Shown here: in pieces, positions 2,297 through 61,957 of the stretch
How the letters are laid out: every line of letters begins with the position of its first letter
How positions within the stretch are numbered: position 1 is the first letter of the stretch
Assembly (NCBI RefSeq): GCF_030553305.1
Contig: NZ_JARRAH010000003.1
Coordinates: 124,001 to 188,000, forward strand
Length of the DNA: 64,000 bases
Direction of reading: 5' to 3'
Origin: Halomarina ordinaria
GTDB lineage: Archaea; Halobacteriota; Halobacteria; Halobacteriales; Haloarculaceae
Made by a program: the position numbers and the translations under genes
The notes under the pieces: generated by a model
Database searches by the model: none
Told to the model about the DNA's origin: nothing
The model's input: only the letters and a program-made list of their open reading frames with translations

Positions 2297-3272
2297 GTAC
2301 GCCGCGACACGGGACGGGACGCGCCCGGAGACCGACCAGCCGCCGGACGAGCGCATCGACGAGAGGTAACGAAATTGTCTCAGAAATAGATAAAGGTCCA
2401 ATATGAGTGTAATTCAATTCGATTCTGACAAATAATTATAAAAATAGAACGAGGCAGTATATCGTGTATACCCTTGCTCAGTAGCGATATAATCGCTATA
2501 GATAAGGTTATAGTGCCGTATACCGGCGCAAACATTGTTCTATAAAATCAGAGGAAATATCTGAATATTGTGGATGCGCGTTGTTCGTCGTCTTCCTCGT
2601 GTGGAACGACAGGGACTCCTCACAGGACCCTTCGTTCTGTCCGGCCTGCGGCGTGCTCGCGCCAACGTCCATAACACGGCTATACCCGTTATGTCGGCGG
2701 CCTGCGCACCCCCGCCGCCGTCGGTCGGTCGGCACCTCAACTCGCGTTCCACCACGGACACCGACGCCCGGACCACCCGGTCACGCCACCCGACGTGACC
2801 GTTCCGCCATCAGTGTAATCGTCGACTGTGTCGTTTCTTTCTGTTATTCACGAAAATCTGAAGCAATATCTTTGGGGGCGTGATATACGACCACGAACAG
2901 GCGGCAAAGGCGTTCGAACTGCTGGTTTTACCCGTAACTGGAGGAGAAACGAGCGGTCAAACGAGTACGGGAGGTGGTCGCAGTCACACTGCACCCCGAG
3001 CGACCGGGACGGAAACCGGCCTCGTCGGCGTTTCGTGGTGATTTCCGGTCGTCAGACGGGTCGCATGTCCGTCCGGCGTCGAACGCGAGCGAGGCGACGA
3101 GCGTATCTGTCTCTTCCGCGCCTGTCGGCGTGTGACGACGGTTCGCGGGCGGACGCGACGTCGTTCGTCCACTGGCTACCGAGTAGAGTCGAGCGTTTCG
3201 ATTAGGATACCGATTCCGGATATCGTTCACTCGTGGTAAAAGTATATGTGAGCGCGCACGGAGTCAGTTACC
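2297..3272. other. Long intergenic region with an AT-rich island
   Basis: I see no convincing gene here. The stretch 2365-2570 is markedly AT-rich against the GC-rich flanks and carries the inverted repeat TAGCGAT-N3-ATCGCTA at 2482-2498. A ten-codon ATG reading frame at 2403-2435 is too short to judge. A second AT-richer patch lies at 2810-2890. The right end holds the promoter of the IclR gene: a TATATG box at 3243-3248, about 28 bases before its ATG. The long open frames that cross the region have no family resemblance and a composition typical of antisense frames in GC-rich DNA. Confidence 0.5.
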
Positions 3273-4088
3273 ATGGAAAACGACAGCGTCACACACGGGA
3301 TGGGCGGGTCGACGAACGGGGTGAAAGCCGTCGAGACCTCCTTTCGAATCGTCGACGCGCTCAAGGACACCGGCGGTGGAAAGGTCACGGACATCGTCGA
3401 CCGGACCGGCCTCTCGAAGGGGGCGGTGTACAAGCACCTGACCACGCTGATGGACCACGACCTGGTCGTGAAGCGCGGACAGGAGTACACCCTCGGGTTC
3501 CGGTTCCTCGATTACGGCGGCTACCTCCGGTCGCGCTACATCGGCTCCGAACTCATCAAACCGCAGATACAGGACCTGGCGGAGGAGACCGGCGAGGTGG
3601 CGCTGTTCTCCATCCCCGAGAAGGACCGCGTCATCACGCTGTTCAGGGAGAACGGCAACAAGGGGGTGTTCACCAGGACGCGCTTGGGGATGCGACTGCA
3701 CATGCACCAGACCGCCGGCGGGAAGGCCATCCTCTCGCAGTTCTCCCGGTCGGAGGTCGAGGGGGTGATCGAGCGGGTCGGCCTGCCGAGGGCGACCGAG
3801 GCCACCATCACCGACGAGGAGGCACTGTTCGAGGAACTGGAGACCATCCGCGAGCGGGGGTTCGCCCTGAACCGGGAGGAGAGCACGGAGGGCCTCGTCG
3901 CCGTGTCGGTCCCGCTCACGCCCGACGACACGGTCATCGGCGCGTGCGGCATCGCCGGCCCCCGACACCGGATGGGCGAGGAGCGGGTGATGGAGGAGAT
4001 ACCCGACCTGCTGTTGAGCGTCGTCAACGAACTCGAACTGAACATCACCCACTCCCACGGCCCCATCCAGCTGTTCTGTCCCGAGTAG
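3273..4088 (+). CDS. IclR-family transcriptional regulator
   Basis: This 271-residue protein has the usual IclR layout: an N-terminal winged helix-turn-helix (about residues 17-75, recognition helix near LSKGAVYKHLTTL) and a C-terminal ligand-binding domain of GAF-like fold (about 90-262) with the family stretch MHQTAGGKAILS. IclR proteins bind a small aromatic or organic acid and control nearby catabolic operons. The neighbours fit that role: a ring-cleaving dioxygenase follows in the opposite direction. The TATA-like TATATG at 3243-3248 implies a leaderless ATG at 3273. A paralogue lies at 51641; both proteins end with a near-identical segment around DLLLSVVNELELNI. Confidence 0.93.
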   Translation: MENDSVTHGMGGSTNGVKAVETSFRIVDALKDTGGGKVTDIVDRTGLSKGAVYKHLTTLMDHDLVVKRGQEYTLGFRFLDYGGYLRSRYIGSELIKPQIQDLAEETGEVALFSIPEKDRVITLFRENGNKGVFTRTRLGMRLHMHQTAGGKAILSQFSRSEVEGVIERVGLPRATEATITDEEALFEELETIRERGFALNREESTEGLVAVSVPLTPDDTVIGACGIAGPRHRMGEERVMEEIPDLLLSVVNELELNITHSHGPIQLFCPE

Positions 4089-16929: not shown

Positions 16930-17031
16930 GTTTCTCGATATAGCGATATGAGATATATTACGACCGTGTTGGCACGCACAGCCTGCTGACCCGCCCGCCC
17001 GGTACCGAGAGGCGACCCACGGTCGAGTCGG

Positions 17032-17079
17032 GAATCAGTGAGTCAGTGACTCAGTACCTCAGCGACTCCTCGATTCGCC
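17032..17079. repeat. Octad array A (GANTCANN) at the 3' end of the RHH gene
   Basis: Six contiguous 8-bp units begin at 17032, 17040, 17048, 17056, 17064 and 17072. The first three read GAATCAGT, GAGTCAGT and GACTCAGT; the others are degenerate. The array runs over the stop codon (17059-17061) into the last codons of the small RHH-like gene. The spacing is exactly eight bases throughout. The same octads occur upstream of parA and again at 61918-61957, so these are probably binding sites and not coding repeats. Confidence 0.8.
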
Positions 17080-17454
17080 GTCGTCCGACTGGGCGAGCGC
17101 GCGAATCCGCTCTTTCGTCTCCTCGGGGTGGGCCTCGAAGGCGACTTCGAAGACGGCGCGGTAGAAGTGCTTGTTCTTCTCCAGGACGTATCCCTCGCGC
17201 TTGAGTTGCTTCTTGAGGCGGGTGAACGTGACGTCGATGTCCTCGCTCTGGGTGGGTTCGACGTAGATGGTCGCGGAGTCCCAGTCCTCGCGGATGTTCA
17301 ACTGGTCGTCGCGTTCCGTCCCGGACGACTGCGCCTCCGGAGTCGTCTCCCCTTCTCCTTCGGCCTCGTCGTCGGTCGTTCCACTGGATTCGCCCGTTCG
17401 CTCGTCGGTGCTCGCGGACGGGTCCTCGAACCGCTCGTCCATTCCGCGGGGCAT
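17059..17454 (-). CDS. Small ParA partner with a ribbon-helix-helix-like C-terminal domain (candidate centromere-binding protein)
   Basis: The 131-residue protein has two parts. Residues 1-57 are very acidic and low in complexity, probably disordered. Residues 58-120 look like a ribbon-helix-helix domain: a short strand SATIYVE, a helix about 72-86 rich in Lys and Arg (FTRLKKQLKREG) and a long helix about 94-119. Its ATG lies one base after the parA stop, so the two are co-transcribed. By analogy with RHH partners of ParA (omega, ParG, SegB) it would bind the surrounding 8-bp repeats, build the partition complex and repress the operon. This role is inferred from position and predicted fold; I do not recognise a named family. 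Confidence 0.7.
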   Translation of the reverse strand: MPRGMDERFEDPSASTDERTGESSGTTDDEAEGEGETTPEAQSSGTERDDQLNIREDWDSATIYVEPTQSEDIDVTFTRLKKQLKREGYVLEKNKHFYRAVFEVAFEAHPEETKERIRALAQSDDGESRSR

Positions 17455-17455
17455 C

Positions 17456-18367
17456 TCAGGCCTCCACCTCCGTCCGCTCGAACGCGCGTTCGAGCGTCGC
17501 CGCGACCTCGGAGAAGAGTTCGCGTTCGACGGTCTGGTCGTTCGCGTCCTCCCACTGGAAGACGTCCATCCCGTTGTCCCAGGCGCGCTGGATGGCGACG
17601 CGCATCGGGAGCCGGAAGACGGGCGCCATCGACGCCCACGAGTCGTCGAACGCCTCGAGGAACTTCCGCGACTGGCCGTCCGACCGGTACATGTTCGCCA
17701 GCAGGCCGACGATGGCGATGTCGATGCCCTGGTTCGTCTCGATGGACTCCAGCTGGTCCCAGAGGTCGTCGAGCGCGTCGCGCGAGGTCGCCTGGGTCTG
17801 GGCGGCGAGGAAGACGTTCTGTGCGGCGATGAACGCCGCGTCGGTCAGCACCGAGAGGTCGGGCGGACAGTCGACGAGGACGAAGTCGTACTCGTGGCCG
17901 TCGTCGATGAGGACTTCGAGTGCCTGTTTCAGCGAGAGGCGGGCGTTCGCGTCGTCCATCCAGTCGCGGGCCAGGCCCATGTCCTTGTGACTCGGGACGA
18001 GATCGAAGTTCAGGTGGTCGTACTCGTCGGCCTCGACGAGTATCTCCGAGAGCGCCGTGTCGTGGGTACGGGGGTTGTCGACGAGGACGTCGAGGAGGTT
18101 CGAATCGTCGGTGACGAGGAGGTTCGGCAGGTCGTTCTTCGGGTTCGAGGGGTCCGCGTCGTCTCCCGGCCCGAGGCCGAGGCCCTTCGTCATGTCCGCC
18201 TGCGGGTCGAGGTCGATGGCGAGGACGTCGTGTCCACGGGTCGCGAGCGCCCCCGCGCTGTTGATCGTCGCGGTAGTCTTCCCGGTCCCACCCTTCTGGT
18301 TTCCGAACGCGACCGTGGGAACGCCCGTCGAGGGCGTGACGGCCCAGCCGCGCGGTACGTCACTCAT
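17456..18367 (-). CDS. parA: ParA-type partition ATPase
   Basis: The 303-residue protein has the deviant Walker A motif KGGTGKTT (residues 25-32), the A' motif AIDLDPQADMT and Walker B FVLVDCPPDLS, with later conserved stretches around AAQTQATSRDALDDL. ParA ATPases bind the nucleoid in dimer form and move or space plasmids and chromosomes with a DNA-binding partner. The N-terminus lacks the long helix-turn-helix extension of type Ia ParA, so it is of the short (type Ib-like) class, in which the partner protein is the repressor. The ATG at 18367 is preceded by TTATGA (18391-18396), about 24-29 bases up, and by three octads lying between that box and the start. Confidence 0.95.
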   Translation of the reverse strand: MSDVPRGWAVTPSTGVPTVAFGNQKGGTGKTTATINSAGALATRGHDVLAIDLDPQADMTKGLGLGPGDDADPSNPKNDLPNLLVTDDSNLLDVLVDNPRTHDTALSEILVEADEYDHLNFDLVPSHKDMGLARDWMDDANARLSLKQALEVLIDDGHEYDFVLVDCPPDLSVLTDAAFIAAQNVFLAAQTQATSRDALDDLWDQLESIETNQGIDIAIVGLLANMYRSDGQSRKFLEAFDDSWASMAPVFRLPMRVAIQRAWDNGMDVFQWEDANDQTVERELFSEVAATLERAFERTEVEA

Positions 18368-18371
18368 ACCT

Positions 18372-18395
18372 GAGTCATTGAATCAGGGAGTCATA
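18372..18395. repeat. Octad array B1 in the parA promoter
   Basis: Three contiguous units at 18372, 18380 and 18388 (GAGTCATT, GAATCAGG, GAGTCATA) fill the space between the parA start codon and its TATA-like box, and overlap the box. A protein bound here would block transcription of the parA operon, which suggests autorepression. Confidence 0.75.
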
Positions 18396-18495
18396 AACGT
18401 ACGTCAGACAATCGGGGCGACCCGGAGCACTCGCACGACGAGCCACCCGGCCTGCGCCTGCACGCCCAATGGGGTACGTTTCGACCAAAATCGTT

Positions 18496-18535
18496 GAATC
18501 AGTGATTCAAGGAAGCAACGACTCGTGTACTCAGG
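18496..18535. repeat. Octad array B2 upstream of parA
   Basis: Five units in exact 8-bp register begin at 18496 (GAATCAGT), 18504 (GATTCAAG), 18512, 18520 and 18528 (TACTCAGG). About 100 bases of GC-rich sequence without octads separate it from array B1. Confidence 0.75.
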
Positions 18536-18583
18536 GCGGACGACAATCCGAGCGCCGTATGTGGAATTCGACCAGTAGTAAGT

Positions 18584-18796
18584 GAATCAGTGACATCAGG
18601 AGTCAACGAATCAAAGATGTAATGAACGGCCAAATCAACGACATAAAGTCAAGGAATCAATGAATCATTGACTCAGTGTATCAGTAAATCAGTACATCAA
18701 TGAATCACGAAAGCATCGACTGCAGGCTCAGGGAATCATCGACCGATGGAGTCGGTGAATCCCGGAGTCCACCAATCAGTGATTCAATGAAACGTC
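18584..18796. repeat. Main octad array B3 (about 26 units)
   Basis: This is the longest array. The unit consensus is GANTCANN, most often GAATCAGT or GAATCAAT. Units at 18654, 18662, 18670, 18678, 18686, 18694 and 18702 are seven in perfect 8-bp phase. The array continues with a two-base phase slip near 18646 and a one-base slip near 18725, then in register from 18733 to 18796 (units include GAGTCGGT, GAATCCCG, CAATCAGT, GATTCAAT). The composition is much more AT-rich than the flanks. It has the look of a centromere-like partition site. Confidence 0.85.
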
Positions 18797-18845
18797 GAAC
18801 GCGTCGGGGACGCCCGCTCGACGGGCAACGACGCACCACGCCGTC

Positions 18846-18909
18846 GAATCAGGGAATCCGTAGGTATCGGATTCGAGGAGTACGTGAGTCACGGATTCCA
18901 TGAGACGGT
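18846..18909. repeat. Octad array B4 next to the recombinase gene
   Basis: Eight units in register begin at 18846 (GAATCAGG), 18854 (GAATCCGT), 18862, 18870 (GATTCGAG), 18878, 18886 (GAGTCACG), 18894 (GATTCCAT) and 18902. A 49-base GC-rich gap separates it from array B3. The array ends 78 bases before the stop codon of the tyrosine recombinase. Confidence 0.75.
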
Positions 18910-18987: not shown

Positions 18988-20289
18988 TCAGTCGGCGAAC
19001 GCGTCCGCCAGTCGGTCGCGCATGAACTCACGCCGGACCCGGCGGGACCGCGAGTCGGAGAGGTAGTTCCGCACGACGACCCGGGGGTCGCTGCTCCCCT
19101 GCTCCGCGGCGATGGTCTCGACCCCCTCGAGGACGCCCTCCAGGACGGCGGTGTAGGTGTCGTACCAGAAGCGCCGACACAGCTGTGGACTCGGCCGCTC
19201 CCCGCCGATACGGGCGGGGAGGTCGGCCTCGGCAGCGAGCGCCTGGAACCAGTTCCGGACCGTGTTACGGGTCACGTGGGGCGTTTCGCCCCGAGCGGAG
19301 GGGAAGAGATAACCCGTCCACGCGTCGTCGACCGCCAGTTCGTCGACGCGCGCATCGAGCGCCGCGAGGCCGAACAGCACCGAAACCTCGCCCGGACCGT
19401 TCTTGCGGTCGTCGAACCGGACGTAAGGGACGTCGTCGTCGGGGACGTCACGGGTAATCTGTGAGGCGTGCAGCGCGGCGACCTCGCTCGCCCTGAGTCC
19501 CCACCCGGCGAGGGCGGTCACCAGGAGTCGGTCCCGCGGGGTCGAGGCCGCCCGCGTCAGCGCCCGGACGTGTGTCGCCGAGAGCGCCGGCGTCGACGAC
19601 GCGGCCGTCTCCCACTTGAACTCGTCGTAGAGGCCGCTCGCGGGGTTCAGCGAGGCGACGCGCCGCCCCACCAGGTGCTGGTACCAGGCGTCGACGACGC
19701 GGCGCACCCGCTGGAGCGTCTGGGCGCTGTACGCACGGTCGGCCCCCTCGTTCAACCAGTCGAACGCCGCGTAGCAGGCGTCGACGGCCGCGTGGGCGGG
19801 CGTCTCGCGCTCACGGAGGACCGGCGTGAGGAGGTCGTCCGTCCCGTTCGCCTCCCGGTACGCTCGCACGTAGAGGTTCAGTCGGGTTCGAAGGGCGTCG
19901 ACGGACGACGCCGCGAGCCCGTGTCGCGACCGCCGACGGTCGAGGAAGCGTTCGAGGGCGTCGACGGTCCGCCCGTCCGCGGTCGCCCACGCGTAGCCGT
20001 CGTCGACCGACCCGAGTCCGAGGTCCTCGGTCCAGAACTCCCCGAAGGAACGGCCGTGATGGCGCCGCAGCGCCGCGAGAAACGACCGGGCCCCGTGGTC
20101 GCGGAACCACTGGTGCGTGGGTCGCTCGCACGTCGGGTCGATACCCGTCGCCTCCAGACACGGGGCGACCCGGTCGCGGTACAGGGCGACGAACTCCTCC
20201 AGCGAACACGCCGACCACCGAACGTCGTCGAACGAGGGCGTTCGACGGCCGTCGAGTCCGTCCGTTTCGGTCGGCTCCGGCCGGGTCAT
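18988..20289 (-). CDS. Tyrosine recombinase / integrase
   Basis: The 433-residue protein has a SAM-like core-binding N-terminal half (about 105-225) and a C-terminal catalytic domain. The catalytic set can be placed as R266 in GWGLRASEVAAL, K296 in DRKNG, R372 in PQLCRRFWYDTY and nucleophile Y409 in VVRNYLS. The two histidines usual in boxes II and III appear as Q369 and S399, so this is a divergent member. Such enzymes integrate elements, resolve multimers or invert DNA. Its position just beyond the octad arrays and parA suggests a resolvase of the replicon or the integrase of an element. It reads toward the arrays. No tRNA gene or clear att site is visible. Confidence 0.88.
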   Translation of the reverse strand: MTRPEPTETDGLDGRRTPSFDDVRWSACSLEEFVALYRDRVAPCLEATGIDPTCERPTHQWFRDHGARSFLAALRRHHGRSFGEFWTEDLGLGSVDDGYAWATADGRTVDALERFLDRRRSRHGLAASSVDALRTRLNLYVRAYREANGTDDLLTPVLRERETPAHAAVDACYAAFDWLNEGADRAYSAQTLQRVRRVVDAWYQHLVGRRVASLNPASGLYDEFKWETAASSTPALSATHVRALTRAASTPRDRLLVTALAGWGLRASEVAALHASQITRDVPDDDVPYVRFDDRKNGPGEVSVLFGLAALDARVDELAVDDAWTGYLFPSARGETPHVTRNTVRNWFQALAAEADLPARIGGERPSPQLCRRFWYDTYTAVLEGVLEGVETIAAEQGSSDPRVVVRNYLSDSRSRRVRREFMRDRLADAFAD

Positions 20290-61863: not shown

Positions 61864-61917
61864 GCCTCGGTTCCCGACGCGTTCGTCGAGGTGACACGAA
61901 CCGCTCGTGTCGTCGTT

Positions 61918-61957
61918 ACCTCAAGGAATCATTGATTCAGTGAATCATTGAGTACAG
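61918..61957. repeat. Distant octad array C, same unit as at parA
   Basis: Five contiguous 8-bp units begin at 61918 (ACCTCAAG), 61926 (GAATCATT), 61934 (GATTCAGT), 61942 (GAATCATT) and 61950 (GAGTACAG). The three central units match the parA octads closely and keep exact 8-bp phase. The array lies in the gap between two convergent genes, where it interferes with neither promoter. It is 43 kb from parA. Confidence 0.8.

Follow-up and report, generated by a model that had tools for sequence, protein, structure and literature searches.

In the pSM19035 delta-omega-parS system of Firmicutes, a short ParA and a small partner, omega, are combined with contiguous short repeats lying over the operon promoter; these heptads (WATCACW) are non-palindromic, omega dimers each bind one of them, and ParA activation needs at least four contiguous repeats (PMC9499535). 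The type Ib system ParF-ParG-parH of TP228 likewise combines a short ParA, a small DNA-binding partner and an array of short boxes: ParG bears an RHH domain, which coats the boxes, preceded by flexible N-terminal tails that activate ParF (PMC7308502). The principle of a ParA acting with a small partner and contiguous short repeats is thus one known from bacteria.

For archaea, the accessible part of a 2016 review of segregation covers SegAB and pNOB8 of Sulfolobus, and no haloarchaeal plasmid system (PMC5120986). According to that part, SegA is orthologous to ParA, the downstream gene encodes a partner specific to archaea, and sites are located upstream of segA; the pNOB8 plasmid is partitioned by AspA-ParB-ParA, in which a protein coats DNA from the centromere (PMC5120986). 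SegB recognises 13-bp palindromes (TCTAGA S TCTAGA), which are dispersed over the chromosome (PMC12284271). Here, we analyse a haloarchaeal gene pair and its repeats. The original prediction knew of no described haloarchaeal system of such design, and we found no description of one in the open-access literature searched. In the open-licence literature searched, we likewise found neither the protein family and its range of archaeal hosts, nor palindromic octads on both sides of the operon, nor the change of the unit from 8 to 9 bp between subfamilies.

A parA-partner gene pair framed by octads in Halomarina ordinaria

The window, which is the whole stretch of 64,000 nucleotides that was analysed, corresponds to bases 124001-188000 of the 240,923-bp contig NZ_JARRAH010000003.1 (C3) of H. 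ordinaria, whose assembly comprises six contigs and 3.61 Mb. It contains the following features:

17456-18367, minus strand: parA, 303 aa, Walker-type ATPase without N-terminal HTH extension, with KGGTGKTT inside residues 1-30
17059-17454, minus strand: partner, putative centromere-binding protein, 131 aa (N-terminal peptide, acidic linker and C-terminal domain)
18371-18909, unstranded: upstream octad array (TGANTCAN), putative centromere and operator, its first units directly upstream of the parA start
17031-17077, unstranded: second octad array, which runs over the 3' end of the partner gene
61917-61955, unstranded: distal cluster of four contiguous octads, candidate extra site, flanked by convergent genes at a distance of 44 kb from the par locus
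18391-18398, minus strand: TATA-like element TTTATGA, touching the first three octads and recognized from sequence only

The two genes are separated by a single base and framed by words in 8-bp phase, an arrangement proposed in the original prediction and confirmed here by the coordinates and by the lag-8 statistics given below. The ParA protein matches the AAA_31 family at 4e-33 and the PHROG 'ParA-like partition protein' at 5.9e-41, and its nearest solved structures are Soj, ParF and further ParA proteins; by these similarities, it is a partition-type ATPase.

The repeat unit is best described as TGANTCA, a palindrome of 7 bp, to which a one-base spacer is added, and the phase differs between the blocks of the locus. 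When words are counted leniently (at least 4/6 matches), 57 are found, which agrees with the earlier estimate of about 50 units, but this estimate does not hold for words with at least 5/6 matches (22) or for perfect ones (12). The seven units in perfect 8-bp phase reported at 18654-18709 are real (18653, 18661, ... 18701, counted from the T of TGANTCA). Between 18372 and 18909, seven word pairs (at least 5/6 matches in each word) occur at lag 8 and zero at other lags from 4 to 15, as compared with 0.03 on average and at most 1 in 1000 dinucleotide shuffles. Over the whole window, TGANTCANTGANTCA is matched 36 times with at most 3 mismatches, versus 6.9 expected (maximum 16). Finally, the exact two-octad word has five copies in the whole 3.6-Mb genome, all of them on C3: four at the locus and one in the 61917-61955 cluster, the only one outside the par locus. 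This four-unit cluster was missing from the array blocks listed previously. As the lag-8 pairs, the excess of TGANTCANTGANTCA over expectation and the confinement of the exact word within the genome all show, octad phasing at the locus is not due to chance.

Octad arrays are conserved at homologous loci

Among 391 genomes drawn from the class Halobacteria and searched for the partner family, currently annotated as 'hypothetical protein', nearly half (180) contain it, and homologues occur in 39 of 146 genomes of the same taxonomic family. They were recovered from 31 plasmid records and 80 loci with names, and the homologous loci are located mostly on plasmids. Partner homologues split into subfamilies, and the window partner belongs to subfamily A, the signature of which is MPRGMDERFEDP...LNIREDWDSATIYVEP...LEKNKHFYR.

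A search for 8-bp periodic words beside haloarchaeal parA-partner pairs, suggested along with the original prediction, revealed octads at all intact subfamily-A loci, where the two genes are always 1-2 bp apart. Array statistics were computed on 50 non-redundant intact homologous loci. All 50 carry an array, with a median of 21 octads in 700 bp, and word pairs occur at lags 8 (485), 16 (323), 24 (241), 32 (213) and 40 (182), as opposed to 0, 1 and 0 pairs at the off-register lags 7, 9 and 10. The position-weight matrix derived from 747 chained units reads T.81 G.97 A.99 N T.97 C.95 A.87 N. Array positions are also conserved: in 47 of the 50 loci, the parA start codon follows the first octad at a distance of 10 or 18 bp, and 46 loci have a second array at the 3' end of the partner gene. 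Chained octads are scarce elsewhere in subfamily-A loci, with 5 in 65 kb inside both genes and 6 in 150 kb more than 400 bp downstream. At the genome scale, the three-octad word (at most 2 mismatches) is present 6-13 times per genome in 20 of 20 subfamily-A genomes, with 0 matches for a reversed-pattern control; among the matches listed, the three-octad words fall at the par locus.

One further locus is not intact. In L059 (3400-5453 of a plasmid of Haloferacaceae archaeon XH8), all that is left of parA is a C-terminal remnant, located behind a transposase-like frame; the partner is intact and the octads are gone.

The TATA-like element beside the first octads of the window suggests, on sequence grounds, that the operon is autoregulated. 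Because the array abuts both this element and the parA start codon, as pSM19035 repeats likewise overlap promoters (PMC9499535), it might be an operator only, with the partner repressing transcription of its own operon and a true centromere located elsewhere. We consider this improbable, as the 7-29 octads of each array, reaching about 160-590 bp upstream, together with the array at the operon 3' end in 46 of 50 loci and the distal cluster between convergent genes, exceed the needs of an operator. Besides, operator and centromere roles are not mutually exclusive.

Two subfamily-A partner genes (L048 and L076) are found on MAG contigs labelled Thermoplasmata and Spirochaetaceae, which are probably misbinned haloarchaeal plasmid contigs.

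The array word changes with the partner subfamily

Subfamily-B partners (signature MSDGWGDASGIEGNY...TNIKDEWNGRTIYIPDD...KKNRHFYPLLVQFG) exhibit about 22-28% identity to the window partner. Their gene order is the same, with a ParA of 272 aa and a parA/partner overlap of 4 bp. Octads are absent from subfamily-B loci, which carry contiguous 9-bp units, AACGAANNA, placed as octads are in subfamily A (45 loci). In these 45 loci, 392 pairs occur at lag 9, versus 0, 1 and 0 at lags 7, 8 and 10, and the first unit is usually located 10 bp from parA; only 1 pair of AACGAANNA was detected in 131 kb of downstream control sequence. Subfamily D is found on contig C6 of the H. ordinaria genome and on eight plasmids (e.g. 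Halobacterium salinarum PHS4); the sequence upstream of its parA has a 9-bp period as well, but a weaker one, and the word is of GTTTG type. As subfamily A bears an 8-bp array, subfamily B a 9-bp array and subfamily D this weaker 9-bp period, the array word changes with the partner subfamily.

It had been anticipated that homologous pairs devoid of phased octads would speak against the prediction. None was found among intact subfamily-A loci, but such pairs exist in the wider family: besides subfamily B with its 9-bp array, the more distant relatives L154-L169 possess the gene pair with no obvious upstream array and an unconvincing periodicity, and a pair of the wide family on the H. ordinaria chromosome (L008, G000:C1:570989-572064) has no recognisable array.

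Two additional observations concern these subfamilies. The XH8 plasmid record that contains L059 also bears two subfamily-B loci (L095 and L098). On contig C6 (L009, about 3240-3305, minus strand), about 13 copies of a GAGGA pentamer precede the subfamily-D parA, separately from the 9-bp units.

Neighbouring genes

A further gene of the window adjoins the upstream array:

18988-20289, minus strand: tyrosine recombinase, 433 aa, just upstream of the octad array

Relatives of this recombinase were found on 122 plasmid records, and it could play a role in plasmid dimer resolution. In 15 of 29 subfamily-A loci, as opposed to 0 of 38 subfamily-B loci, a homologue is encoded upstream of parA at a distance of no more than 1.5 kb. 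This proximity raises the question of whether the repeats are recombination or accessory sites of the adjoining enzyme. We give this hardly any credence, because about half of the array loci have no such enzyme in their vicinity, the operon separates the second array from it, and subfamily-B loci carry arrays in spite of having no recombinase nearby.

Short phased repeats near replication genes are also the hallmark of iterons, so that the arrays might belong to a plasmid origin and be bound by a replication initiator; an orc1/cdc6 gene is indeed located within 1-2 kb at a few loci of the wider family (L185 and L193). The nearest Orc1/Cdc6 gene on C3, however, is about 50 kb from the par locus, which speaks against iterons, and in six subfamily-A plasmids with annotation, no gene less than 5 kb from the locus is annotated as a replication gene. 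Moreover, the word follows the partner subfamily rather than an initiator, and in L059 the array was lost along with parA. Arrays are thus very unlikely to be iterons.

Partner protein architecture

Two segments of the partner can be delimited:

codons 17419-17454, minus strand: conserved N-terminal peptide MPRGMDERFEDP, candidate ParA-activating motif by comparison with ParG and omega
codons 17062-17304, minus strand: conserved C-terminal domain (residues 51-131), putative DNA-binding domain with a predicted strand and three helices

According to the conservation profile, most residues of the N-terminal peptide are conserved in at least 90% of subfamily A, and the length of the linker varies. 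This acidic linker spans 40-63 residues in aligned subfamily-A proteins, and residues 13-50 of the window partner have a net charge of -11.

The original prediction assigned an RHH-like C-terminus to the partner, which our analyses did not confirm. AlphaFold models of the full-length protein and of the C-terminal domain, with pLDDT of 56 and 67, respectively, contain helices preceded by a strand or an extended segment, a predicted layout that is only compatible with RHH. Searches with these weak models using Foldseek and VIA-align returned no credible match, a result that does not prove a new fold. At the sequence level, a PDB search with two partner profiles yielded no related chain, and scans of Pfam, NCBIfam and PHROGs gave only weak matches or matches of unknown function. 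Comparison of partner profiles (67 and 113 homologues) with omega (1irq) using hhalign gave a probability under 1%, although remoter homology would escape detection by this approach, and no relation to ParG or MetJ was detected. The Pfam RHH_1 model recovered five chromosomal proteins in the H. ordinaria genome, and the partner was not among them.

The MetJ repressor works on contiguous 8-bp palindromic met boxes and has a long first helix after the strand. Its likeness to the partner is a geometric analogy only, as MetJ (sequence 1cma) is not a partition protein and shows no detectable sequence homology to the partner. The palindromic octad would fit one symmetric dimer per unit.

A putative partition system of haloarchaeal plasmids

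The short ParA without HTH extension, the small co-oriented partner downstream and the repeat array upstream are features that fit the placement of the cassette among type Ib ParA systems. Given the partition-type ParA, the conserved phased arrays at fixed positions and the mostly plasmid location of the loci, the cassette is very probably an active type Ib-like ParA partition system of a haloarchaeal plasmid, the arrays serving as both centromere and operator. The partition reading is further supported by the loss of the array where parA is a remnant (L059).

We infer that the partner binds the words, that its tail stimulates ParA, that the operon is autoregulated and that the whole ensures partition. 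Partner multimers would bind along the contiguous octads on both sides of the operon and form a partition complex, i.e. the centromere, which would also cover the parA promoter and thereby repress the operon. The flexible acidic N-terminal tail bears the conserved basic peptide, which may contact ParA and stimulate its ATPase; by analogy with ParG and omega, a partner coating the octads would present many such tails to ParA. Nucleoid-bound ParA would then move or tether plasmid copies.

Among described systems, delta-omega-parS resembles the cassette in its layout, so that the earlier description of the locus as being in the style of delta-omega holds in this respect. It does not extend to the components: the haloarchaeal units are 8-bp palindromes or 9-bp AACGAANNA instead of non-palindromic 7-bp heptads, no pair is spaced by 7 bp in the 50 subfamily-A loci as against the 485 pairs at lag 8, and the partner, unlike omega, has a long acidic linker. 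As word length and symmetry differ and profile comparison detects no homology, the sequences do not support membership of the partner in the omega family. With TP228, the partner shares the order of parts, a tail stimulating ParF in ParG being followed by the DNA-binding domain (PMC7308502), but TP228 boxes are degenerate tetramers with AT-rich spacers, and ParG is a 76-aa RHH protein without detectable homology to the partner.

The cassette also differs from the archaeal systems. SegAB is chromosomal, whereas exact octad words are confined to the plasmid contig in H. ordinaria, and the scattered 13-bp sites described for SegB are set apart from the contiguous 8- or 9-bp haloarchaeal arrays. 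The pNOB8 system, as presented in the accessible part of the review, differs in having three genes, with an AspA of winged-HTH type and ParB as adaptor, and in spreading from a single nucleation site of 23 bp (PMC5120986).

A broader proposal can be made only tentatively, and we hold it with less than even confidence: the partner may represent a large, unnamed family of centromere-binding proteins in archaea, which would have no sequence relationship to their bacterial counterparts and whose fold is possibly new or strongly modified. In this family, contiguous-array centromeres would have evolved independently of bacteria, and the unit would have changed with the subfamily (8 bp palindromic versus 9 bp directional). 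If true, this independent family would offer a natural series for studying the reading of repeat length by a segrosome.

For the inheritance of haloarchaeal megaplasmids, a defined gene pair is now proposed together with its DNA site, likewise defined. Subfamilies with 8-bp and 9-bp units coexist in some genomes, which makes incompatibility and the reading of repeat length directly testable, and arrays could be used as markers for typing haloarchaeal replicons and in building stable vectors.

Orphan and viral relatives

Short partner-like proteins also occur as orphans (L077 4929-5237, G186:C4:7197 and G442:C35:22116). They have neither the conserved N-terminal peptide nor a parA, and a complete cassette is located about 6 kb away on the same contigs. 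Viral families of unknown function match the partner family (L123 and PHROGs 26668/29165); a search of viral_contigs gave no relative with the window partner as query and one locus with the alignment as query. In PhiH1, a 402-bp gene of unknown function overlaps the end of the parA gene (PMC6210493).
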